NCBI RefSeq assembly: GCF_009707865.1
Contig: NZ_WMBA01000002.1
Location: forward strand, 186,001-250,000
Direction: 5' to 3'
Length of the DNA stretch: 64,000 nt
Source: Amycolatopsis pithecellobii
GTDB lineage: Bacteria; Actinomycetota; Actinomycetes; Mycobacteriales; Pseudonocardiaceae
Positions 49,404 through 64,000 of the stretch are shown piece after piece. Positions within the stretch are counted from its first letter, which is position 1. Each line of letters begins with the position of its first letter. The translations under genes were made by a program, and so were the position numbers. The notes below the pieces were generated by a model. The model was not told the DNA's origin and ran no database searches. It was given only the letters and a program-made list of their open reading frames with translations.

Positions 49404-52214
<2,811 letters not shown>

Positions 52215-52594
52215 GGGATCTCCTCGCCAGTTGTCTCTCGCGTGTCGAACACGCCCGAGGGGGCGTGTGCTGCTGCCATCGTCGTCTTTTTCCGGGCCTC
52301 CGTCATCGCTACTCGGCGGTAACGTCTGCCTGTCCCGCGGTTGGATTCGCATACTCCACACGCGCACGCGCGCGCGAGACTCCTCCACCCTAGGTCACGC
52401 TCACTCCACGGGGTCGCCGAGCCGTCCGGAAGGACTGCCCGCTGGGCTGAACGGCTCCTACCGTGGAAAACGAGTTGGCACAGATCCGGTGTGGACGGTT
52501 GCGTCGCGAGCCGCGGGCGTGTTCGCTAGCTCCATCCGTGTATTCGAGTGATCGGCCAGTCCGGTCACCCGTCGTAGTTGGAGGAGTGAAAGCA
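52215..52594. other. Divergent intergenic region aceE/DUF3052
   Basis: 380 bp without a gene; it holds the divergent promoters. An alternating purine-pyrimidine stretch (CACACGCGCACGCGCGCGCG) occurs at about 52359-52378. No operator dyad is obvious. Confidence 0.5.
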
Positions 52595-53023
52595 GTGGTC
52601 GCCGCTGGAGACGCTGACTACAACAGCGTCGCCGAGAGGCTTGGCATCAAGCCGGACATGGTGGTTCAGGAGATTGGCTGGGACTCCGACGTCGACGACG
52701 AGCTGCGTGCGGCGATCGAGGAGCACATCGGCGGCGAGCTCCTCGACGAAGACGCCGACGAGGTCATCGACGTGGTGCTGCTGTGGTGGCGGGAGGACGA
52801 CGGTGACCTGGTGGACGCGATCATGGACGCCCGCGCGCCGCTCGACGAGAGCGGTGTGATCTGGGTCCTGACGCCCAAGACCGGGCAGCCGGGTCACGTC
52901 GAGCCGAGTGACATCGCCGAAGCGGTACCGACGGTCGGGCTCGCGCAGACGTCCAACATCAGCGTCGGGGCGAACTGGGCCGGCACGAAACTGGTCTCAC
53001 CCAAGTCCAAGTCCAAGCGCTGA
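52595..53023 (+). CDS. DUF3052 family protein
   Basis: A 142-residue acidic protein: YNSVAERLGIKPDMVVQEIGWDSDVDDELRAAIEEHIGGELLDEDADEVIDVVLLWWREDDGDLVDAIMDARAPLDESGVIWVLTPKTGQPGHVEPSDIAEAVPTVGLAQTSNISVGANWAGTKLV. This is DUF3052, a conserved actinobacterial protein of unknown function. GTG 52595 has GAGGAG eight bases upstream. It lies 52 bp upstream of ahpE. Confidence 0.9.
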   Translation: MVAAGDADYNSVAERLGIKPDMVVQEIGWDSDVDDELRAAIEEHIGGELLDEDADEVIDVVLLWWREDDGDLVDAIMDARAPLDESGVIWVLTPKTGQPGHVEPSDIAEAVPTVGLAQTSNISVGANWAGTKLVSPKSKSKR

Positions 53024-53075
53024 CCGGTAAGGTTGGGGCTCGCAGAGACATGGCGAGACGCGAGAGGTGACCAGG

Positions 53076-53540
53076 ATGGCGGTCGAGGTCGGTTCGAAGG
53101 CCCCGGATTTCACGCTCAACGACTACAACAGGCAGGCTGTCACGTTGTCGTCCTTCCAGGGCGACAAGCCGGTGCTGCTGGTGTTCTACCCGTTCGCGTT
53201 CAGTGGTATCTGCACCGGTGAGCTGTGCCAGCTGCGGGACGAGTTCGCCGAATACGAAGGCAGCGGCGTACAGGTGCTCGGGGTGTCGGTCGACACGCCG
53301 TTCTCGCTCAAGGCATGGGCCGAGCAGCAGGGGTACCAGTTCCCGCTGCTGTCGGACTTCTGGCCGCACGGCGATGTCGCCCGCAAGTACGGCGTGTTCA
53401 ACGAGGACGCCGGGCTCGCGGTGCGTGGCACCTTCCTGATCGACAAGGATGGCGTCGTGCGCTTCGCGGAGGTCAACGCGCCCGGTGAGGCGCGTGACCA
53501 GCAGGCGTGGAAGAAGGCCGTCGCCGAACTGCCCGCGTGA
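53076..53540 (+). CDS. ahpE: 1-Cys peroxiredoxin AhpE
   Basis: A 154-residue peroxiredoxin: PDFTLNDYNRQAVTLSSFQGDKPVLLVFYPFAFSGICTGELCQLRDEFAEYEGSGVQVLGVS; the peroxidatic Cys is in SGICTGELC with the Pro-x3-Thr/Ser-x2-Cys pattern. Followed by FLIDKDGVVRFAEV. Detoxifies peroxides using mycothiol/mycoredoxin. ATG 53076 (AVEVGSKAPDF) is chosen. A hairpin follows the stop. Confidence 0.93.
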   Translation: MAVEVGSKAPDFTLNDYNRQAVTLSSFQGDKPVLLVFYPFAFSGICTGELCQLRDEFAEYEGSGVQVLGVSVDTPFSLKAWAEQQGYQFPLLSDFWPHGDVARKYGVFNEDAGLAVRGTFLIDKDGVVRFAEVNAPGEARDQQAWKKAVAELPA

Positions 53541-53548
53541 TTTCCCTG

Positions 53549-53580
53549 CCTCCGGCGGCGTTTCCGGGTGCCGCCGGAGG
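53549..53580 (+). terminator. Hairpin after ahpE
   Basis: CCTCCGGCGGC and GCCGCCGGAGG form a perfect 11-bp stem with a 10-base loop, between ahpE and tRNA-Val. No T tract follows. Confidence 0.6.
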
Positions 53581-53583
53581 TAA

Positions 53584-53655
53584 GGGCGCATAGCTCAGCG
53601 GAAGAGCACTTGCCTTACAAGCAAGGGGTCGCAGGTTCGAACCCTGCTGCGCCCA
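53584..53655 (+). tRNA. tRNA-Val (UAC)
   Basis: A complete cloverleaf: acceptor GGGCGCA/TGCGCCC, D arm GCTC...GAGC, anticodon stem CTTGC/GCAAG with loop CTTACAA (anticodon TAC, valine), T arm GCAGG-TTCGAAC-CCTGC, discriminator A. CCA is not encoded. Its 3' part is duplicated at 56354-56405 as an attachment site. Confidence 0.97.
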
Positions 53656-53662
53656 CCCTGTT
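53611..53662. repeat. attL-like core in tRNA-Val
   Basis: 52 bp from the anticodon stem to CTGTT just after the tRNA, repeated in direct orientation at 56354-56405 with one mismatch (GGGGT versus GGGGC). Identity ends sharply on both sides, as for site-specific integration into a tRNA 3' end. Confidence 0.88.
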
Positions 53663-53769
53663 TTCGCACGTCAAAGAGGGTGCCTCCTAAGTGGGAGACA
53701 CCCTCTTGGTCCCTGAGTGACCAACTAAGTGACTACGGTTCGCCGGAGCCGTCTGCGTTGGGGGATGCG

Positions 53770-54504
53770 ATGTCGTGGTTGGAATTCGGCGTTGGGATCG
53801 CCAGTGCCCTCGCGTGGCCCGTCGGAGTGGTTGTCCTGGTTTTCCTGCTCCGCGAGCAGGTCCGACGGATCCTCGACTCACGGGTGATCAAGTCAGTGAA
53901 GGCAGGTCCGTTCGAGATGCAGTTCGAACAGGGCCTGCAACAGGCCAGCCAAGAGATTGGGAAAGCTGCTGCGGAATCTATTCAGAGTGGCGTTAAGCCT
54001 GAGCCGTCGCCTCGCGACCAGGAATCAATTGAAGGTACTGCGAGTGGGGAAGTTCCACCTCGTGAAGGTACGGCACCGGGGAAGGTGCAACACGATGACG
54101 ATGTCGATCGGCAGGGTGTTGCCGGAGTATTCGAGCCCGCGCAGGTTCTTGATGACTTCTGGGACGAAGTGGTCGACGCTTTGGAAGCATCCCCTTGGGC
54201 TGGGGCTATGTTAAGTTTTTCTCGCCTCGAACAGTATTTGCAATTTCGACTGGGATGCATTGTGCAAGATAAGAAAAAGAATTACGTTCCTCTGGGGTAT
54301 ATGATCAAGCTCGCTGGTGACCGGGGTCTGTTTGAGCCTGGAGAGTTGAATGCGCTCCGCGAGGTTGTCAACCTTCGCAATTCTCTAGTCCACCCGAAGC
54401 CTGGTGACGGCATCACACTTGCACAAGCTCTGCGGTATTCCAAACTGGTGAAGCAGCTCATTGTCGCGGCTGAGACAAACTTGGGTCGTACCAATTTTAG
54501 TTAA
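53770..54504 (+). CDS. Membrane protein with C-terminal HEPN-like RX4H motif
   Basis: A 244-residue protein: one N-terminal helix (residues 8-27: GIASALAWPVGVVVLVFLL), a variable charged linker (60-120), and a helical C-terminal domain with LREVVNLRNSLVHPKPGDG, i.e. Arg203-x4-His208, the HEPN catalytic pattern. The DNA of this gene is less GC-rich than its neighbours. HEPN proteins are often RNases in defence or toxin systems. It lies just after attL. ATG 53770 has GGGGGA upstream. Confidence 0.7.
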   Translation: MSWLEFGVGIASALAWPVGVVVLVFLLREQVRRILDSRVIKSVKAGPFEMQFEQGLQQASQEIGKAAAESIQSGVKPEPSPRDQESIEGTASGEVPPREGTAPGKVQHDDDVDRQGVAGVFEPAQVLDDFWDEVVDALEASPWAGAMLSFSRLEQYLQFRLGCIVQDKKKNYVPLGYMIKLAGDRGLFEPGELNALREVVNLRNSLVHPKPGDGITLAQALRYSKLVKQLIVAAETNLGRTNFS

Positions 54505-54986
54505 CGTGCTCGTTTGGGAAAGATTCGGTCCATAGCCGTTGCGCCTTCGTCCATCACCGGCCGGATCTGCAAGCGGTACACGGTCTCGGTCACCGTTGTT
54601 CCGTTGTGGCCGACCAGGCGCGCGATATGTTCGAGCGGCACCCCGGAGTCCGACATCAGCGAGACGAAGCTGTGCCGCATCTCCCGCGGAGTCCAGTCCT
54701 CCGGCACCAATTCAGCACCCTTGACAACTTTCCGGAAGGACCGGCGGACGTTGTGCGAGTCGAGCGGTGTCCTGACCGCGGAGGCGAATACAAGCCCGTT
54801 CTCCTGCCAGCGCTCGCCTGCCACCTTCTTCGCCGCAGCCTGTCGGATCCGGTGAAGGCGAAGCGCCACAACGCATCTCGTCGGCATCGCGAGCGTGCGG
54901 CGAGACTTGCGCGTCTTCGTGTCGCCAGACGCGCGCACCGAGCGCCACACGCTGATCGAGCGCAGCACGGGCGGTTCAGCCGCCAC
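54501..54986 (-). pseudogene. Tyrosine integrase, C-terminal remnant
   Basis: The 161-residue frame holds the catalytic end of a phage/ICE-type tyrosine recombinase: DTKTRKSRRTLAMP, NVRRSFRKVVKGAELVPEDWTPREMRHSFVSLMSDSGVPLEHIARLVGHNG (HxxR-type box) and Tyr in TVTETVYRLQIRP. The first 200 or so residues (SAM-like domain and first Arg) are absent. A truncated integrase next to the duplicated tRNA end is the relic of the element's integration module. Stop overlaps the HEPN gene stop. Confidence 0.8.
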
Positions 54987-55300
54987 GTTGCGATTCCCGC
55001 TTCCAGTAAGGACCAGGCGCTGGGTACGTTGACATTTACCGCGCAGCTCCTAAGTCTCGTTTACGAAATGGACCACAAGGTCCGGCAGTTCCTTCCTGCG
55101 CCTGACGCTGCTGGCGACGGCACAGGTTGAGGTTGAACATTTGGTGCGAGGCAAAGGCGTAGGGAGCGACTCTTCAGCCTGTCGGCTCAGCGCACAACGA
55201 TGTTGGCGCTGTGCTCGCCGTGGTCCGGGTCGTGTAGGGATACGGTTGGGGGCCGCCGGCAGTTGAGCGACCCGGTTCGTCGGCGCGGAGGCGCTAAACG
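54987..55300. other. Intergenic/relic sequence in the element
   Basis: 314 bp between the truncated integrase and the toxin gene. I find no convincing gene; the missing integrase N-terminus is not present here in any frame. Confidence 0.5.
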
Positions 55301-55579
55301 TCAGTGCGGTCGGTATGCGTCCCGGCGGTGCGCGACCGCGAGGACGGTGATCGTGCGTTCGTGGTCGTCGATCGAGTACAAAGCTCGGTAGTCGCCGCGG
55401 CGGGTTGTCCAGACCTCGTTGAATGGTTCGTCGAGCGGTTTACCCAGGCGATACGGGTTTCCGGCGACGGGACCGATCAGGTGCTCGTACAGCGCTGTGG
55501 CGGCGGATAGGGGCAGCTTGGCCAGCCTTCGACGTGCGGCGGGCGAGAACTCGACAGCGTAGAGCGCAGCCTGGCTCAT
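55301..55579 (-). CDS. RelE/ParE-family toxin
   Basis: A 92-residue basic protein: YAVEFSPAARRRLAKLPLSAATALYEHLIGPVAGNPYRLGKPLDEPFNEVWTTRRGDYRALYSIDDHERTITVLAVAHRRDAYR. This is the RelE/ParE fold, with GDYRALYSID and VLAVAHRRDAYR as diagnostic strands. Acts as an mRNA interferase or gyrase poison. ATG 55579 overlaps the antitoxin stop (ATGA). Confidence 0.88.
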   Translation of the reverse strand: MSQAALYAVEFSPAARRRLAKLPLSAATALYEHLIGPVAGNPYRLGKPLDEPFNEVWTTRRGDYRALYSIDDHERTITVLAVAHRRDAYRPH

Positions 55580-55869
55580 TCGCCGACATCGTGACGGGCG
55601 GCCAGGTCCGCGGCGATGTCCGCGGAGGAGAACACCCGGCCCGCGCGGGCGTCGGCCAAGCCTTCGGCCAGGTCGCGAACGAGGTCGGTGTCGGACAGGA
55701 CATCGATCGTCTCGCGGAGCCTTTCGAGTTCACCCGAGGGCACGAGGTCCGCGACGTGCTTGCCGTGGGCGACCACGGACACGGTCTCGCCGTGCTCAGT
55801 GCGTCGCACCACGTCAACCCAGGAAGGCTGGTCCTCGGCTTGCACCGTCGTGCCTGCTGGTTCGCTCAC
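55576..55869 (-). CDS. Phd/YefM-type antitoxin
   Basis: A 97-residue protein from GTG 55869: SWVDVVRRTEHGETVSVVAHGKHVADLVPSGELERLRETIDVL is the DNA-binding Phd/YefM-like N-terminal part, followed by an acidic tail that would cover the toxin. Partner of the downstream RelE-like gene, probably autoregulated. Confidence 0.85.
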   Translation of the reverse strand: MSEPAGTTVQAEDQPSWVDVVRRTEHGETVSVVAHGKHVADLVPSGELERLRETIDVLSDTDLVRDLAEGLADARAGRVFSSADIAADLAARHDVGE

Positions 55870-56089
55870 AGCATCAACGATACGGGTACGCGCAACACAC
55901 AACGCTGATTGGCGAGGCGGGCCCGCCCTGGTGCGAACCCGCCTCACCTCGAAGCACCAGCGCGGTGGTCATCGTTTCGCCGGCCTTGACAGCATCGTTC
56001 ACCGCGAGTTGGTCAGCCCGGCCGCACGGGCGCACCCTGCCGAGGCACAGCGCGGCGGGCAGGCGCGAGTGACACGTACGCCTCAACGC

Positions 56090-56200
56090 TGTCACACCTG
56101 TCACCCTGTCACTTTATGGCATCTGACCTGCGGAGACAGGTGTGACAAGAGTGTGACGGCGGGGTGTGACAGTTAGTCCCCGCACTAATTTCCTGTCACA
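56090..56200. repeat. Cluster of TGTGAC/TGTCAC motifs with long inverted repeat
   Basis: Seven copies of TGTCAC or TGTGAC lie within 111 bp (56090, 56099, 56107, 56141, 56152, 56165, 56194). The outer pair forms a 13-bp perfect inverted repeat (TGTCACACCTGTC at 56090-56102; GACAGGTGTGACA at 56135-56147). Spacing is irregular. Such iteron-like arrays act as replication or excision protein sites, or as operators. Confidence 0.6.
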
Positions 56201-56353
56201 GGGTCATCAGACTGGAACAGGCGGGGATATTAGCAGCCTGCACGGGGCATGCCCCCTCCTGTTCCAGCGTCTTCGAGCTGGTCGCGGGCAGGGAGGCGAG
56301 TGACGAACTGAGTGACAATCGCCAAGATCACCAGGTCAATCGAGCCCAGCGAG

Positions 56354-56405
56354 TGCCTTACAAGCAAGGGGCCGCAGGTTCGAACCCTGCTGCGCCCACC
56401 CTGTT
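56354..56405. repeat. attR-like copy of the tRNA-Val 3' end
   Basis: Direct repeat of 53611-53662 with one mismatch. It covers the anticodon stem 3' half, T arm and acceptor 3' strand only, so it is not a functional tRNA. It marks the right boundary of the element. Confidence 0.88.
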
Positions 56406-56443
56406 CGGTGGCGTTGCCACCTTCCCGGGTCTTCGTCTCGTTG

Positions 56444-56481
56444 TGGGGGGCGCCCCCCCACACCCCCGCGGTGCGTGCTCC
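56444..56481. repeat. GC-rich interspersed repeat, copy 2
   Basis: Reverse-complement relative of 47696-47735: GCACCGCGGGGGTGTGGGGGGG then CGCCCCCC on the minus strand, with a GGGGGGCG/CGCCCCCC hairpin. Confidence 0.5.
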
Positions 56482-56700
56482 TCGCCTTGGCGGGCGCTGG
56501 GGACGTTGGGCTTGGACCAGCGTCGGGTTTGAATTGCACCGTGTCCTTCGGTATGGGCATGCGGGTGTTAAGGGGCATTGGGGGGTGCTGTTTTGATCGA
56601 TCCCGGCGCGAGTGGTAGCGGGGGTGGTTGCTGCGTGCCCAGGATGTGCGCGCAATTGTCTCCGCCACGCCACGAGCGTGGTCTACGGAACGGGAATGAC

Positions 56701-56907
56701 ATGAAAATTGGGTTCGTAACCGCCGCGGCGGCTGGAGTTCTCATCGCGGCGGTGGCGTCGGTCGCCGCCGCGGCCACTTCCGCGGAGCCCCCGCAGGAGC
56801 ACAGCCACGAGGGCATTCTGGCTGAAGTCCCCCAGGAGCACAGCCACCAGGGGTTCGTTCTGGCGGAGGTTCCGCAGGAGCACAGCCATGAAAACATTCT
56901 GAACTGA
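56701..56907 (+). CDS. Small secreted peptide with three PQEHSH repeats
   Basis: A 68-residue precursor. Residues 1-25 form a signal peptide (MKIGFVTAAAAGVLIAAVASVAAAA). The rest is three tandem 13-14-residue units: AEPPQEHSHEGIL, AEVPQEHSHQGFVL and AEVPQEHSHENIL, then Asn. Each unit carries His-Ser-His. The DNA repeats are diverged at wobble positions. ATG 56701 is used, with GGGAA upstream; the frame extends to 56578 without support. A terminator follows. Could be a metal-binding secreted peptide or a precursor cut into three. No modification enzyme is adjacent. Confidence 0.75.
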   Translation: MKIGFVTAAAAGVLIAAVASVAAAATSAEPPQEHSHEGILAEVPQEHSHQGFVLAEVPQEHSHENILN

Positions 56908-56927
56908 CCAGAAGCGACTGATCCCGG

Positions 56928-56970
56928 CGCCGTCACCTTGCCGCAGACGAAGCGAGGTGACGGCGTTTTT
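56928..56970 (+). terminator. Rho-independent terminator after the repeat peptide
   Basis: CGCCGTCACCT (56928-56938) and AGGTGACGGCG (56955-56965) form a perfect 11-bp stem directly followed by TTTTT. It ends the peptide gene and implies a short monocistronic transcript. Confidence 0.85.
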
Positions 56971-56981
56971 CGCGCCAGGAG

Positions 56982-58166
56982 TCAGAAAAGCCCGTTCACC
57001 GGCGGTTCTTCACCGGTCAGGTGGTAGGCGCCTGCCACCGCGGCCTTCCACTGCCTGGGATTGTGATTCGCGATGGTGCGGGCGTTGCGCCAGTGCCGGT
57101 CGAAGCCGCGGTCCCGGCTGGTCGCGGCACCACCCCCGACATCGAACAGCAACTCGGCCGCCCGCAGCGCCGATTCGACGGCGACCACGCCGGCCTGCGC
57201 CACGACGACAGCAGCCTCCGCGCCTGCCTTCCGCGCCCGTGGACCACTCAGCCCACGCACGCCGTCCAGTGCCTCAGCGGCCAGCAACACCGCCGCCCGC
57301 GCGGCATGCGCTCTCGCGGCGATCTCGCCCACCGTCTCCCGCACGTACGGGTCCTCGACGCTGGTGCCGGCCGTGCTGTGCTTGATGGGCCGCGCCCCGT
57401 CCCGTGCGAAGGCGATCGCGTCGTCGAGCGCCGCGGCGGCGATGCCCGCCTCCACCGCCGCCAAATAGAGCTGTGCGAACGAATCCGGCCACGGGTTGGC
57501 CGGCCGGACCTCGTCCCAGGCCACGATCTCGTCGGCGGAGACGCGCACGTCCACCAGGCGCGTGGTGCCGCTCGCCGTCAGTCGCTGGCCGATCGCGTCG
57601 AAATCGTCGAGTCGGTGCACACCTTCGCGATCGACGGGGACCGTGAAGCCCAGTACCCTCCCGTTTTCGTCCGTGGCGTTACCCGAAAACCAGTGCGCGT
57701 ACAACGCACCCGTCGAGTAATACTTTTCGCCGTTCAGCACATAGCCATCGCCCTCACGTCGCAGTGTGGTGTTGACGGACCCGTTGGCGCCACCGGTGCG
57801 TTCGTTGCTGGTGCCGGCGAAAAGGTCGCCGTCGCACAACCGTCGCAGGGTCAACGTCCGCTGCGGCAGGCTGGGGAAGCCGGCCACCCGGTTGGCGACG
57901 ATGAAGCTCATGCGCAGTGCCTGAGCCACACTGGAATCGGCCCGGGCGATGGCCAGGATCAGATCGGTCACCTCACGCACCGAGCCGCCCGCGCCGCCAT
58001 CCTCTTTCGCCACCCCAACGAGCGTGATCCGCTGTTCGGCCAGCGCGCGGACCTCGGCGAACGGGTGATCGCGGGAGCGTTCGCGTGCCGCGGCGCCGGC
58101 GGCGAGGGTGCCGAGAATGGGGGAAATGGCGGAGCGGATGCCTTCGACCGTGGGGGCGGTGATCAC
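56982..58166 (-). CDS. SfnB/DszC-like flavin-dependent monooxygenase (acyl-CoA dehydrogenase fold)
   Basis: A 394-residue acyl-CoA dehydrogenase-fold protein: HPFAEVRALAEQRITLVGVAKEDGGAGGS, GDLFAGTSNERTGGANGSVNTTLRREGDGYVLNGEKYYSTGALYAHWFSGNATDENGRVLGFTVPVDREGV. The KYYSTGALYAHW block is typical of SfnB/DszC-type sulfur-acquisition monooxygenases, which need FMNH2 from a reductase. Start GTG 58166 is inferred from family length; the ribosome site is weak and the open frame extends upstream. Confidence 0.82.
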   Translation of the reverse strand: MITAPTVEGIRSAISPILGTLAAGAAARERSRDHPFAEVRALAEQRITLVGVAKEDGGAGGSVREVTDLILAIARADSSVAQALRMSFIVANRVAGFPSLPQRTLTLRRLCDGDLFAGTSNERTGGANGSVNTTLRREGDGYVLNGEKYYSTGALYAHWFSGNATDENGRVLGFTVPVDREGVHRLDDFDAIGQRLTASGTTRLVDVRVSADEIVAWDEVRPANPWPDSFAQLYLAAVEAGIAAAALDDAIAFARDGARPIKHSTAGTSVEDPYVRETVGEIAARAHAARAAVLLAAEALDGVRGLSGPRARKAGAEAAVVVAQAGVVAVESALRAAELLFDVGGGAATSRDRGFDRHWRNARTIANHNPRQWKAAVAGAYHLTGEEPPVNGLF

Positions 58167-58215
58167 CGTCGGAATATACGGCGGGGACAGTCGAGGGTGC
58201 CGACCCGGTCGACGT

Positions 58216-58551
58216 CTGTCTACAAAGGACAGCTTGGTTGGCGCTCGGTTCCGCGATGTCCCGTTCACCGCGAAGTTCGTCCCCACCAACCCCCGCTGCC
58301 TTCCTGGCTCGGAATCCGGCGCGGTGCCGCTTTCGGTAAGCGCTTTCACCGGGGTGGCCACGACGGAGAACACCACCACGACCGTCAACGCCGGTGAGTT
58401 GCTGATCAGCGTGGAGAACCAGAACGTCACGCTTCCGTGGCCGGTCATGCTGCCCGACACCTCGATGCTCCAGACCTCCGGCAACCTCAACCCGGTCACC
58501 GTCACCGGCACCCGAGCCGGCAACCCCGGCTGGACCCCCGCCGTGATCGAC
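58216..58551 (+). pseudogene. Fragment of a large secreted protein
   Basis: The frame contains FTAKFVPTNPRCLPGSESGAVPLSV and GELLISVENQNVTLPWPVMLP ... SGNLNPVTVTGTRAGNPGW, which resembles a C-terminal repeat of actinobacterial extracellular proteins encoded beside Pst-type ABC transporters. It lacks a start and runs directly into the next relic. Confidence 0.5.
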
Positions 58552-59577
58552 AAGCTCGTCGCGCAGAGCGCTCCTGCTGGTCCTGCTCGCGCCGACCGCG
58601 CTCGCCCAAACCCCGCCGCCGACGGACGGGTGACCTTCGGGGTCCGGCCCGCCACCGCGCAGGCACCCGACAACCGCAGCGGCTTCACCTACAGCGCGAC
58701 CCCCGGCGCGCGCCTTGTCAACCATCTCGCGGTGTCCAATGTGGGCGAACACCCGCTGAATCTGCGGATCTACCCCAGTGACGCGTTCAACACGCCCGAA
58801 GCCGGGTTCGATCTCCTTGCCACCAACCGGAAATCCGTCGATCTCGGCACATGAGTCGTGCCGGGTCGAGATGTCGTGTCGGTGCCGCCCCGCTCGCCCG
58901 CGATCGTCCCGTTCACCCTCGACATCACCGCCGGTGCGACGCCCGGCGACCACGCAGGTGGCATCGTCGCGTCGCTCAGCACCGAGGAAACCCAGGCTAA
59001 CGGCCAGAAGGTGACCGTCGAACAGCGCGTCGGCGCACGGATCTACCTGCGGGTCAGCGGCGCGCTGCACCCGGAGCTGACGGTCACCGACCTCACCGCC
59101 GACTATCACGGGAGCGTGTTCGGGCGCGGCGAGGTCACTCCGAACTACGTCGTGCGCAACTCCGGCAACGTGCGGCTGTCCGGTACCCAGTGGGCCAAGG
59201 TGTCCACACCCTGGGGATCCACTGTGGACGGACCGCCGCTCGCGGCCATCCCGGAGCTGTTGCCCGGTTCGTCGATGAAGCTGAGCACGAGGATCGGTGG
59301 GCTGCTGCCGGGCGGCTGGCTGACCGGCACGGTCCACGTGGATCCCGTTGCGGTGCCAGGACATCCGGACCAGCCGGGCCCACCGGGCGAAGGGAACGTG
59401 ACGTTCGCCGCCGTGCCCTGGCTGTACCTCGCCGCACTGGTGGTGCTGTTGCTGGCTTTGCTGTTCTGGCTGTTGCGCCGGCGCCGGCGCCGGCCGCGAG
59501 CCCGGGCTCGTTGTGCTGCCGGGCGAAAGTGCCGACACCGCCCCGATGCGGGAGACGAACGGCGGGTGCCTGCCTGA
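58552..59577 (+). pseudogene. WxL/DUF916-like cell-wall protein gene with nonsense and frameshift lesions
   Basis: From the start a signal peptide can be read only in another frame (ALLLVLLAPTALAQTPPPTDG, about 58570-58632), while the mature part continues in frame 1: RVTFGVRPATAQAPDNRSGFTYSATPGARLVNHLAVSNVGEHPLNLRIYPSDAFNTPEAGFDLLATNRKSVDLGT, then TGA at 58852-58854. The same frame continues VVPGRDVVSVPPRSPAIVPFTLDITAGATPGDHAGG to a C-terminal helix and Arg-rich tail. TGA replaces the expected Trp codon TGG. The protein family is the DUF916-type WxL-associated, membrane-anchored wall protein. Confidence 0.68.
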
Positions 59578-59805
59578 CGCCGACGCCTACAACGCCGTGT
59601 TGCGAGGGAACGGCCTGCCTGGGGATGGGGTGGTGATCACCGCGACCACCAGCGCCGGCAGCTCGCACAAGACTGGTTTCGAGGTGCATCCTTCTGAGAC
59701 GTTGCGCGATTTCGCCGCGGACAACCACACCACGTTCGCCGCGACCATCAGCTGTCGGTGTACTGCGTTGAAGGGGCCGGACATCCCGCCGCCGCGGGAA
59801 GGACT
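59513..59805 (+). pseudogene. Fragment of a hypothetical secreted protein
   Basis: The frame reads ADTAPMRETNGGCLPDADAYNAVLRGNGLPGDGVVITATTSAGSSHKTGFEVHPSETLRDFAADNHTTFAA before homology ends. It overlaps the tail of the previous relic in another frame and has no proper start. A piece of the same decayed cluster. Confidence 0.45.
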
Positions 59806-59888
59806 CGACGCGGCACCAGTGGTAAGCGCCCCGGCCGCCGTTCCCCAAGTTGCCTCGGGAAGCACGAAAAGCGCCGGCTGGAGTGGCG

Positions 59889-60045
59889 ATGGCGGGGGAC
59901 ACCGGTGCGCTGGTGCCGCTGGTGGGCTGGGCGCTCGTGCTGGTCGTCGCCGCCGCCGGTGTGGTCTATACCCATCAGCGTCTCGGCCTGTGGCAGAGCT
60001 GGGTGCTCGGCGCGCCGGGTCTCGCCGTTGCCCAGCCGTTGGAGC
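59889..60045 (+). pseudogene. Fragment with membrane helix
   Basis: MAGDTGALVPLVGWALVLVVAAAGVVYTHQRLGLWQSWVLGAP: one membrane helix followed by a short tail, resembling small sortase-adjacent membrane proteins. It is fused directly into the PstB relic. Confidence 0.4.
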
Positions 60046-60054
60046 TGCCCTGCG

Positions 60055-60624
60055 CCCGACTGGACACCGGCACGCTGGAGGCGCGCGCGGTTTCGGCCTG
60101 GTTCGGCGAGCACAAGGTGCTCGACCGGGTTTCGCTCACCATGCCCGCACACGCGGTCACCGCGCTGATCGGGCCATCCGGCTGCGGCAAGTCGACTTTC
60201 CTGCGGATCCTCAACCGCATGCACGAGCTCATCCCCGGTGCCGCCCTGGCCGGCGAGGTACTGCTGGGCGACACCGACATCTACGGCTCGGTGTGGAAGC
60301 TCACCGAAGTCCGCCGCCATATCGGCATGGTGTTCCAGAAACCCAACCCGTTCCCCGCGATGTCTCGCCCGCGCCGGGCTGTGGCGGGAGGTACGCGACC
60401 TTCTCCGGCAACACGGCGGTGCCCTTTCGGGCGGGCAGCAGCAACGTTTGTGCATCGCGCGGGCGCTCGCCGTACGCCCCGCGGTACTGCTGATGGACGA
60501 GCCGTGCTCGGCGCTGGACCCGACCTCGACCCGCCGCATCGAGGAGACGATCGCGGAGCTGACCAGCGAAGTCACCATCGCCGACGAGCGCACCGCCGAC
60601 TATGTGCACGGCCGGTTCGGCTGA
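60055..60624 (+). pseudogene. PstB-like phosphate ABC transporter ATPase, degraded
   Basis: The N-terminal part [72 protein letters not shown] ... [13 protein letters not shown] is PstB with intact Walker A. After it a frame change and loss of about 25-30 residues occur (near 60365). The C-terminal part [67 protein letters not shown] has signature and Walker B, then about 45 residues including the H-loop (VIVTHNMQQA) are missing before [14 protein letters not shown]. Non-functional. Confidence 0.75.
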
Positions 60625-60684
60625 CGCTGCCAAAGGTCACCGCATGGCGCGGGGAACCGGGTAGGCAGATTACAGTCAAAGATC

Positions 60685-61614
60685 GTGAAGAGGTGGACCC
60701 GGGGCTGGATCATCACGACGGTGGTGCTCGTGCTGGCCGCGGGTGTGGCCTCCGTTGCCGGTTACCGGCTTTTGGTCCCGCCGTCACATGATGAGCACGG
60801 TGTGGCGTCGCCGCAGGATTTCGTGTCCAGGCAAGAACTCCAGGCCGGACCGCTGGCGCCCGCGCCGCCGCCGGGATCATGGCGCGTCGACTGTGGCCGC
60901 AACGCCGGCGGCATGCACAACTCGGACAACCTCGTCGCCAGTCCAGGGGAACCGGGCGACGCCCATCACGTGCACGACTACGTCGGGAACCTGTCCGCGA
61001 ATGCCTTCTCCACCAACGAAAGTCTGGCGAGCGCGGGTACCACCTGTGCGGCAGGGGACAAGTCCGTGTACTACTGGCCGGTGCTTCGGGTGGCGGGACA
61101 GATCGTGGTGCCGGACTCGGTGACGATCTCCTATCAGGGCAATCCGGTCAGCAATGTCGTTGCGATGCCACGGTTCCTGCGCGCCAGCTCCGGCAACGCG
61201 CGCGGTTTTTCCAGCGGTGGCAAGCTGACCGAGCATGTCCAGTGGAGCTGTTCCGGTGCGGGCGGGCATGTCGCCCGGCGGTATCCGCACTGCGACGCCG
61301 GGGAACAGGTGTTGCGACTGTTCGATTTTCCGAGTTGCTGGAACGGGCTGACCATCGACAGTCCCGATCATCGGTCACAAATGATCTTTCCCGACAGTGC
61401 CGGAAATTGCCCGATCGGCACGTTTCCGGTACCCCGACTGCACATCCGGCTTGCTTATTCGGTGCCTGCTGGCGTGAACTACGCCATCGACACATTTTCC
61501 GAAGAGAAGAACTCACCGATCGCCGATCACTCCGACTACGTCGATGTCATGCCCGACGCCCTGATGAACGAGGTTGTGACCTGCGTCAACTCGGGACGGC
61601 AGTGTGTGGCCTGA
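60685..61614 (+). CDS. DUF1996 domain protein, membrane-anchored/secreted
   Basis: A 309-residue protein from GTG 60685 with an N-terminal helix (IITTVVLVLAAGVASVAGYRLLV) and then a DUF1996 domain: HHVHDYVGNLSANAFSTNESL, CSVYYWP-like DKSVYYWPVLRVAG, HVQWSCSGAGGHVARRYPHCDAG, FDFPSCWNG, HRSQMIFPDSAGNCPIGTFPVPRLHIRLAY. Several conserved Cys could form disulfides. The family is found in fungi and actinobacteria; function unknown. It ends 4 bp before the in-frame ATG of the sigma gene, suggesting one transcript. Confidence 0.8.
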   Translation: MKRWTRGWIITTVVLVLAAGVASVAGYRLLVPPSHDEHGVASPQDFVSRQELQAGPLAPAPPPGSWRVDCGRNAGGMHNSDNLVASPGEPGDAHHVHDYVGNLSANAFSTNESLASAGTTCAAGDKSVYYWPVLRVAGQIVVPDSVTISYQGNPVSNVVAMPRFLRASSGNARGFSSGGKLTEHVQWSCSGAGGHVARRYPHCDAGEQVLRLFDFPSCWNGLTIDSPDHRSQMIFPDSAGNCPIGTFPVPRLHIRLAYSVPAGVNYAIDTFSEEKNSPIADHSDYVDVMPDALMNEVVTCVNSGRQCVA

Positions 61615-61635
61615 GACATGGGGAGGAAACAGCCG

Positions 61636-62175
61636 ATGGCCGGGTTGAGGACACGTCCTCGCGAGGTCGCAGACGAAGCGCTCGTGCGCACCGTGTTCCA
61701 GGAGCACGGCAATGCCATGCTCGGGTACGCAACCCGGTTGCTGGCGGACAGGCCGGCGGCCGAGGACGTCGTCCAGGAGGCGCTGGTGCGTGCCTGGCGG
61801 AATCCGGAGATCCTGGTCAACGGCAAGGGTTCGACTCGGGCCTGGCTGCTCACGGTCGTGCGGAACCTGGTGATCGACTCGGTGCGGGCACGCAAGGCTC
61901 GCCCGCCTGAGGTGGCGGAAACGCCGACGACTGTTCCCATCGAGCGCGATCACTCGGATAATGTGGTCAACTCGATGACCGTACTGTCCGCGCTGGACAG
62001 CCTCTCGCCGGAGCATCGCGAGGTGCTCGAGCAGACGTACCTGCGCGGCCGGTCGATCGACGAGGCCGCGAGGGAACTGGGCATCCCGCCGGGCACGGTG
62101 AAGTCGCGGTCATACTACGGGCTGCGGGCCTTGCGAGAGATCTTCAAGGCGGACCGGGTGGAGGAAGCCGCATGA
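61636..62175 (+). CDS. ECF sigma factor, SigL-like
   Basis: A 179-residue ECF sigma: region 2 (VFQEHGNAMLGYATRLLADRPAAEDVVQEALVRAWRNPEIL ... ARAWLLTVVRNLVIDSVRARKARP) and region 4 (LSALDSLSPEHREVLEQTYLRGRSIDEAARELGIPPGTVKSRSYYGLRALREIF). It resembles mycobacterial SigL. ATG 61636 has GGGGAGG upstream; ATG 61618 is the alternative. Coupled to the anti-sigma gene by ATGA. Confidence 0.93.
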   Translation: MAGLRTRPREVADEALVRTVFQEHGNAMLGYATRLLADRPAAEDVVQEALVRAWRNPEILVNGKGSTRAWLLTVVRNLVIDSVRARKARPPEVAETPTTVPIERDHSDNVVNSMTVLSALDSLSPEHREVLEQTYLRGRSIDEAARELGIPPGTVKSRSYYGLRALREIFKADRVEEAA

Positions 62176-62876
62176 GTGAGCCGCATGAGCTTCATGTGGA
62201 CCTCGTCGAATACCTCTTCGGTGAGCCGAGTGAGCAGGATCGCCTGACCGTCGAGGCCCACCTTGCCGCGTGCGCGCAGTGCCGCGAGGAGGTCGACTCC
62301 TTGACCGAAATGCAGACCCAGCTTTCCGCGGTGCCGCCGGAGGCCATGCTGGACGGCCCGCCACCGGACGCGGACCTGTTGTTGCAGCGGGCTCTTCGTC
62401 AGGTCCGGAAGGAATCGGCGGGGGTCCGCACTCGTAACCGGACGTTCGCGGCCGCGGCCGCCGTGGTCGTGGCCGCCGCCGCGATCGGGGTCGGCGTGCT
62501 GGTCGGCAGGACGACGGCCGGGACATCTTCGCCGATCGCGGCACCGCCGCCGGCTTCGGTGCGGCCCACGGGTGCCCGGTTCGCCAGCGGCACCGACGCG
62601 GCGACCGGGGCACGGCTGACCGTGGGTGTCACGCCCGCGGCAGGCTGGGTGCGCGTCAACGCTTCGGTCACCGGAATCCCGGCGGGGCAACGTTGCCGGG
62701 TCGTCGTGGTGGGCAAGGACGGCGCCCGCGAGGTAGCCGGAAGTTGGCTTGTTTCGCCGAAAGCGGCGAATGAGGGCGTGAACCTGGACGGTTCGGCGCT
62801 GATCGACCCGGCGAATGTCGCGGCTGTACTGGTCGAGAACACCGACGGGAAGCAGTTCGTGCAGGTCAAGGTTTGA
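62172..62876 (+). CDS. Zinc-binding anti-sigma factor
   Basis: A 234-residue protein. Residues 1-40 hold the ZAS motif HLAACAQCREEVDSL (His-x3-Cys-x2-Cys), which binds the ECF sigma; then a membrane helix (TFAAAAAVVVAAAAIGVGVLVG), and an extracytoplasmic domain of 120 residues that can sense the outer signal. Overlaps the sigma gene stop by ATGA. The architecture matches RslA, the redox-sensitive partner of SigL. Confidence 0.9.
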   Translation: MSEPHELHVDLVEYLFGEPSEQDRLTVEAHLAACAQCREEVDSLTEMQTQLSAVPPEAMLDGPPPDADLLLQRALRQVRKESAGVRTRNRTFAAAAAVVVAAAAIGVGVLVGRTTAGTSSPIAAPPPASVRPTGARFASGTDAATGARLTVGVTPAAGWVRVNASVTGIPAGQRCRVVVVGKDGAREVAGSWLVSPKAANEGVNLDGSALIDPANVAAVLVENTDGKQFVQVKV

Positions 62877-62885
62877 ACCATCTGA

Positions 62886-62901
62886 TGTGAGACAGGTCAC
62901 A
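62886..62901. promoter_or_regulatory. CRP-type site
   Basis: TGTGAGACAGGTCACA matches the CRP/GlxR consensus TGTGA-N6-TCACA exactly, and the dyad extends to 8-bp arms (TGATGTGA ... TCACATCA, 62883-62904). It lies just upstream of the ECF promoter of the lipoprotein gene. Confidence 0.6.
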
Positions 62902-62910
62902 TCAACTGAT

Positions 62911-62937
62911 TGAACGTTACCCGGTCGGGTCGCCGTC
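62911..62937 (+). promoter_or_regulatory. ECF-type promoter
   Basis: TGAACG (-35, 62911-62916) and CGTC (-10, 62934-62937) separated by 17 bp match the SigL-type ECF consensus. It is 50 bp upstream of the lipoprotein gene, just downstream of the sigma/anti-sigma operon, so it is the probable target of that sigma factor. Confidence 0.6.
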
Positions 62938-62987
62938 TACTCCCCAGAGAACGGTCAGATCCGGTCCCTACAAGGGGGTTTTCTGAA

Positions 62988-64000
62988 ATGCTACGCAAAC
63001 GAGCTGCGGTTTTCGCCGCTCTGACCGCGGTGGGAGTCGCTGCGCTGACCGCCTGTGGCGGCGCGGCCGAGACCGCCGCCGGCAAACCGGCCGACGGCGG
63101 CGCAGTGTCCAATGTGGCCTTTGTTACGGGCAGCGCGCAGGACAACAACGCGCCCAAGGACACCGGCGACTTCGCGGCACCCGGCACCGCGGCCGCCCAG
63201 CAGTGGGTGGAGCTCGACGCCGGGACCGCAGGCAAGCTGAACCCGGTGGTGCTCAACGGAAAGGGCTTCACGCTCTACCGTTTCGACAAGGACACCGCGA
63301 ACCCGCCCGCGTCCAATTGCGACGGTGACTGCGCCAAGAAGTGGCCGCCGGTCACGGTCAAGCAGGGTGGGAAGGTTTTCATCAATGGTATAGACCAGAA
63401 TGACGTCGGCTTCCTGCAGCGGCAGGACGGCAGCATGCAGGTCACCATCAAGGGCTGGGCGCTGTACCGGTTCAATGCCGACCAGCAGCCGGGCCAGACG
63501 AAGGGCCAGGGCGTCGACGGCACCTGGTTCGGCGTGACGCCCGACGGGGAGAAGGCGCAGGAAGCCCAGAACGCCACCGACCCGAGCGGCGTCGACTACC
63601 AGAGCGGAACCGCGAAAGACAACAACGCGGACCTGAACGCGGGCGACTTCTACAAGGGTTCCCGCTCGGATGACGCGGCGATGAAGTGGGTGCAGCTGAC
63701 CCGGGCGTCGGCCAACGGGCTCAATCCGATCGTGCGCGACGGCGCCGGATTCACGCTTTACCGTTTCGACAAGGACACCGCGAACCCGTCGCGGTCGAAC
63801 TGCAACGGTGACTGCGCCAAGACGTGGCCGCCGGTGCTGGTGAAGCCCGGCTCGCGGGTCTTCGTCAACGGCGTGCCGGCGAGCAAGGTCGGTGTGGTCG
63901 CCCGCGACGATGGTTCGCGTCAGCTCACGATCGGCGGCTGGCCGATCTACCGCTTCTCCAAGGACACCGCGGCGGGCCAGACCAATGGTCAGGGCGTCGG
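62988..64000 (+). CDS. Lipoprotein with repeated COG4315-type domain (partial)
   Basis: A lipoprotein: signal peptide and lipobox LTACG (Cys about residue 23), then two repeats of a COG4315-like domain: NPVVLNGKGFTLYRFDKDTANPPASNCDGDCAKKWPPV (first) and NPIVRDGAGFTLYRFDKDTANPSRSNCNGDCAKTWPPV (second), each ending in a Y-R-F-containing strand (GWALYRFNADQQPGQTKGQGV and GWPIYRFSKDTAAGQT). The YxFxxD-type motif gives the family its name; function unknown. The window ends inside the second repeat. Behind the ECF promoter and CRP site. Confidence 0.88.
   Translation, partial: MLRKRAAVFAALTAVGVAALTACGGAAETAAGKPADGGAVSNVAFVTGSAQDNNAPKDTGDFAAPGTAAAQQWVELDAGTAGKLNPVVLNGKGFTLYRFDKDTANPPASNCDGDCAKKWPPVTVKQGGKVFINGIDQNDVGFLQRQDGSMQVTIKGWALYRFNADQQPGQTKGQGVDGTWFGVTPDGEKAQEAQNATDPSGVDYQSGTAKDNNADLNAGDFYKGSRSDDAAMKWVQLTRASANGLNPIVRDGAGFTLYRFDKDTANPSRSNCNGDCAKTWPPVLVKPGSRVFVNGVPASKVGVVARDDGSRQLTIGGWPIYRFSKDTAAGQTNGQGV

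Follow-up and report, generated by a model that had tools for sequence, protein, structure and literature searches.

A small gene of unassigned role in Amycolatopsis pithecellobii probably encodes a repeat peptide with a Sec-like signal sequence

Introduction

A short open reading frame (ORF) in a 64,000-nucleotide stretch of Amycolatopsis pithecellobii DNA (the window) raises two questions: is it a gene, and what might its product, a signal-like sequence followed by three histidine-containing units, do? If translated and secreted, the product would be an orphan extracellular repeat peptide, here seen in one species only, and a clean test case for the origin of small secreted peptides in actinomycetes; it would also bear on whether short His-X-His repeats are exported metal binders or multi-copy precursors. 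All of the support comes from one genome. A small gene of unassigned role is fairly well supported, and the interpretation offered by an earlier reading of the letters (the sequence-only reading) is partly supported.

Results and discussion

Three near-identical units follow a signal-like N-terminus

The ORF at 56701-56907 comprises 68 codons on the forward strand, and its product (MKIGFVTAAAAGVLIAAVASVAAAATSAEPPQEHSHEGILAEVPQEHSHQGFVLAEVPQEHSHENILN) opens with MK and continues with a long hydrophobic stretch rich in Ala and Val, after which come three units:

56701..56907, forward strand: ORF of 68 residues, signal-like sequence plus three repeats (translation, copy comparison, shuffle and placement tests)
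56701..56784, forward strand: Sec-like signal sequence with a guessed cleavage site following TSA, residue 28 (sequence reading, helix in a single-sequence model)
56782..56820, forward strand: repeat unit 1, AEPPQEHSHEGIL (repeat search, copy comparison)
56821..56862, forward strand: repeat unit 2, AEVPQEHSHQGFVL (repeat search, copy comparison)
56863..56904, forward strand: repeat unit 3, AEVPQEHSHENILN (repeat search, copy comparison)

The three direct DNA repeats start at 56782, 56821 and 56863, at spacings of 39 and 42 nt, and copies 2 and 3 are 72% and 82% identical to copy 1. Each unit has 13-14 residues and the pattern AE(P/V)PQEHSH...; the P-Q-E-H-S-H block is invariant in all three and is followed by Glu or Gln, with variable residues after it. 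The guessed mature part (cleavage after TSA) has 40 residues, a pI of 4.8, 6 His and 8 Glu, and by composition count it contains no Cys, Lys, Arg or Thr. A structure model from the single sequence places a helix at residues 3-27 (mean pLDDT 63), with nothing confident beyond it and no strands.

The repeat is beyond chance. Its internal score is 20, and 100,000 shuffles of the mature part never exceeded 15. In a survey that covered the window and 21 other stretches of this genome (479,199 bases in all; ORFs of 35-130 aa, crude signal filter), 158 of 4113 ORFs passed the filter and three of these, the peptide ORF among them, had a repeat score of at least 12; the other two look like low-complexity strings, and one of them also scores 20. 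Translation, repeat search and shuffles thus confirm the sequence-only reading in its description of a 68-residue protein with three 13-14-residue units containing His-Ser-His, here after a signal-like N-terminus.

All three units carry hydrophobic residues on the 3' side of the PQEHSH block (GILAEV, GFVLAEV), which would fit a structural or surface-active peptide whose acidic loops and short hydrophobic strands self-assemble at the cell surface, like functional amyloids. We regard this as very unlikely: there are three units only, the last of them shortened, the model has no strands, and the product shows no Pfam or NCBIfam similarity above cut-off.

Differences between the copies bear signs of selection

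Over 13 codons, the proportion of synonymous differences (pS) was 0.61, 0.38 and 0.94 for copy pairs 1-2, 1-3 and 2-3, as against non-synonymous proportions (pN) of 0.13, 0.13 and 0.15; across their first nine codons, five synonymous changes and not a single non-synonymous one separate copy 2 from copy 3. We then kept each pair's nucleotide changes and compared the amino-acid differences with expectation (placement test). Pair 2-3 showed 3 differences where 7.0 were expected (P 0.0019) and pair 1-2 showed 3 against 5.9 (P 0.018), while pair 1-3, with 2 against 3.8 (P 0.11), was not significant; the three pairs are not independent of each other. The synonymous bias is a sign of selection on the amino-acid sequence, and the earlier proposal that wobble changes reflect such selection gains support from pS exceeding pN and from two of the three non-independent pairs. 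Since synonymous sites differ more than amino acids between the copies, the ORF is probably a translated gene, and in our judgement it is very likely a real one. Its GC3 (0.77) lies inside the range of six neighbours (0.77-0.91), giving no evidence of foreign codon usage.

Expression signals around the gene

Two candidate expression signals flank the ORF:

56687..56695, forward strand: possible ribosome-binding site, GGAACGGGA (anti-SD energy -6.2 kcal/mol, ordinary)
56928..56970, forward strand: intrinsic terminator with a 14-position stem (one G-U), a 10-nt loop and TTTTT, oriented for the peptide gene (fold and shuffle test)

The sequence-only reading had given the gene its own ribosome site and a perfect terminator. 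A match to the former is present, but it is ordinary, and because 19% of the 558 ATGs on the forward strand of the window score as well, it is weak evidence. The terminator fared better. Its stem starts 20 bases 3' of the stop codon in the correct orientation, and its fold z of -3.42 was equalled or bettered in one of 200 shuffles; the arms (56928-56941 and 56952-56965) are 93% complementary and the odd position can pair as G-U, so that the terminator is strong and 'perfect' slightly overstates it. A simple terminator scan lists none at this gene because it permits loops of 3-8 nt, which the 10-nt loop exceeds.

A scan for sigma-70-type consensus promoters found none for the peptide gene, and upstream of it four metal-regulator operator consensuses matched no better than shuffles did (198-292 of 300 as good). 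An upstream hairpin, CCACGC-N5-GCGTGG, was set aside as evidence: its shuffle result is circular, the pattern having been derived from the same sequence.

No credible relative in the collections searched

We searched for relatives in genome collections with roughly one genome for each species, whose family, order and phylum sets overlap. With the whole protein, 30 of 41 genomes had a match at E <= 1, with a best non-self E of 0.0145, and with the mature part nine other genomes out of 390 in the family did so at E <= 0.05 (best 0.0038). Of 29 non-self loci that were read, 19 from the 41-genome search (where only matches with a fetched locus were read) and 10 from the family search, all had at most a single E-H-x-H within the stretch that matched, and their repeat scores there reached no higher than 11, against 20 in the query. 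A weak match elsewhere in the same genome was rejected, being a 247-aa frame without tandem units. The mature-part search thus returned no credible homologue among the 389 other family genomes; in an order sample (397 genomes) it returned only itself at E <= 0.005, and in a phylum sample (326 genomes) itself and one other genome, where two overlapping matches fell on a 15-bp simple repeat with internal stops at a contig end and were discarded.

Pattern searches gave the same picture. Scans with the peptide pattern yielded 592 stretches in public genomes and 63 in viral contigs, none of them confirmed, and tblastn against plasmids and phages gave no match to the peptide. EHSH occurs twice in six of the 390 family genomes; in the stretches printed, the other five read as denser His strings. 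A looser pattern of three E-H-x-H motifs was found in at least 120 stretches of public genomes and in 16 of viral contigs; among 216 matches, reading was confined to in-frame ones whose frame did not exceed 400 aa, and those read were His-dense or unrelated, in public genomes largely within His-rich stretches. Some of the public-genome frames look like metallochaperones or metal transporters. At the DNA level, 56521-56981 matched 302 of 390 genomes at E <= 0.01; all non-self matches among those listed were short, and nearly all fell either where unit 1 begins or on the GC-rich DNA that codes for the signal.

Profile matches of the peptide stayed below cut-off in Pfam (best DUF4148, E 0.42, 11.5 bits against 27) and in NCBIfam (MelC1, 15.3 against 120 bits; TIGR02811, 14.6 against 48.45), and a literature search found no publication on PQEHSH and none recognised as being about such a bacterial peptide. 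Looking for the PQEHSH pattern in other actinobacteria, as had been suggested from the letters, was therefore negative in the family, order and phylum samples and in public genomes, and the absence of repeat homologues from related genomes, which the same reading had named as half of what would count against it, is what our searches returned. Judged by these comparisons, the peptide gene is an orphan and lineage-restricted, in the sense that it was not found in the collections searched.

What the peptide might do

We tentatively favour, at less than even confidence, a lineage-restricted, secreted, acidic His-rich peptide that binds divalent metal through repeated E-H-S-H sites. The ORF would be translated and its product exported by the Sec pathway; cleavage of the signal, guessed after TSA, would leave the acidic 40-residue peptide, which may act as a multivalent binder of Zn, Cu or Ni outside the membrane, with one site per unit made of His-X-His and Glu. 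His-X-His together with Glu is a plausible site for these metals in established chemistry. The composition of the mature part fits, as does the signal-like helix with no confident structure after it in the model of this one sequence, and the invariant PQEHSH with its variable spacer suggests a binding unit that recurs to provide valency. Since the triple E-H-x-H matches read from public genomes lie largely in His-rich stretches, some of them in frames resembling metallochaperones or metal transporters, the motif class also fits metal handling, without homology. Repeated E-H-x-H clusters are common to the peptide and to His-rich metal-binding segments of bacterial metallochaperones and cation transporters, but most of the segments that we read have a much higher His density or lie within larger frames, whereas the peptide is small and stand-alone, carries a single H-S-H in each unit and shows no homology. 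Against metal binding, the lack of a homologue leaves the function without support from cross-species conservation, the scanned neighbours include no recognisable metal transporter or metalloregulator, the upstream region has no metal-operator match beyond shuffles, and metal binding alone accounts for neither the conserved Pro-Gln nor the hydrophobic spacer.

The same architecture, a signal-like sequence and three units that are nearly identical, their core constant and their spacer variable, could belong to a multi-copy propeptide, an exported precursor that an extracellular protease cuts between units into three similar peptides of 11-14 residues (signal or antimicrobial). We consider this possible, if doubtful. 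It resembles the architecture of fungal Kex2-processed repeat proteins (KEPs) as one survey (PMC7329392) describes them: there, 2560 of 7878 are stand-alone, without homologues. KEPs, yeast alpha-factor precursors included, have a signal peptide ahead of repeated cores, in the place where sequence reading and a model helix put a Sec-like sequence here. The tandem cores are present in our peptide too, by repeat score and shuffles, but it is bacterial, and the basic cleavage sites that separate fungal cores are absent. With neither Lys nor Arg in the guessed mature part there is no dibasic site, which excludes dibasic Kex2-type or Lys/Arg-specific cutting but not other proteases; as part of the propeptide possibility, and with the same doubt, the cleavage rule would differ from that of fungal repeat precursors and might, for instance, act within L-A-E-V before Pro. 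DUF3328 proteins, which are cyclising in the KEP system, were not seen in Pfam scans of the peptide gene's neighbours. Relatives with varying copy number, which would have favoured a propeptide, were not found in the family genomes.

RiPP precursors with several core peptides form a further class, and they too have repeated cores in one short precursor. They differ in that a Sec-like signal here takes the place of the RiPP leader and that the mature part has no Cys, Thr or Lys; in addition, among the ORFs scanned at 49404-63271 we recognised no modifying enzyme and no dedicated protease or transporter. That scan bears out the earlier remark that no modifying enzyme or transporter sits beside the gene. 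It also yielded no recognisable metal transporter or metalloregulator and no receptor; the lack of a recognised receptor, transporter or modifying enzyme beside the gene speaks against a propeptide as well. What it returned was a pyruvate dehydrogenase E1-type protein, DUF3052, an integrase fragment, a ParE/Phd-like pair, an SfnB-like enzyme, a weak DUF4381 match, DUF1996, an ECF sigma factor and zf-HC2, along with others that matched nothing.

A bolder conjecture is a bacterial alpha-factor-like system in which non-basic extracellular cleavage would free three PQEHSH-peptide variants, acting as a strain-specific signal or a metal-loaded effector, with sequence turnover rapid enough to give every species its own version; we hold this to be improbable.

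The gene adjoins an integrated-element remnant

Two further features frame the peptide gene:

53584-53657: tRNA-Val (tac), intact, upstream of the peptide gene (tRNA search)
56982..58172, reverse strand: SfnB-like flavoenzyme of the acyl-CoA-dehydrogenase type, convergent neighbour, not judged a partner (profile match, congener comparison)

The flavoenzyme scores 288 bits against a profile cut-off of 430.9. Relatives 76-78% identical in DNA occur in three of 18 congeners without common flanks, and around them a script found no such peptide; because blastn with 56001-64000 showed these three to share only the flavoenzyme gene with that region, it was rejected as a partner.

The 3' part of the tRNA-Val gene is duplicated (53611-53662 and 56354-56405, one mismatch in 52 bases), with an integrase match at 54501-54986 on the reverse strand between the two. 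In one congener (G007), which shares both flanks, the tRNA continues directly into sequence matching 56400-56521. As this is an empty site, the intervening stretch of about 2.7 kb is an insertion; on this comparison it is the remnant of an integrated element in tRNA-Val, and the peptide gene adjoins it but lies just outside. The remnant also holds, at 55301-55947 on the reverse strand, a ParE-like toxin match and a Phd/YefM-like antitoxin match below cut-off, and near its right end four exact TGTGACA/TGTCACA motifs (56090, 56141, 56165, 56194) are perhaps protein-binding sites.

The peptide gene itself lies in a variable segment, 56521-58262, which spans 1.7 kb here and 12.4 kb in G007, where the peptide segment has no counterpart. 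Scanned by script, the corresponding sites showed no comparable signal-plus-repeat ORF; they came from 17 of the 18 congeners and were shorter than 5 kb in three cases, the eighteenth being left out because its contig ends there. A 7-residue repeat with a higher score (57) was set aside by eye as low-complexity.

This setting could suit an ORF that is young or without function, in which a short repeat expanded inside a variable, decaying segment without being selected as a gene: the ORF is seen in one genome only, the segment is missing from the flank-sharing congener and adjoins apparently broken genes, the ribosome site is ordinary, and one of the three copy pairs lacks significant constraint. 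We find this unlikely, since neither synonymous-biased copy differences (P 0.0019 and 0.018, the third 0.11) nor a terminator of its own is expected of a chance ORF.

On the far side of the variable segment, 58262-60600 holds pieces of ORFs that are longer in G007 (by eye, an ABC ATPase-like stretch and proteins that look secreted) and that appear decayed here. Beyond them, 60685-62876 encodes a DUF1996 protein with a signal-like start, then an ECF sigma factor and its possible anti-sigma factor, a zf-HC2 protein.
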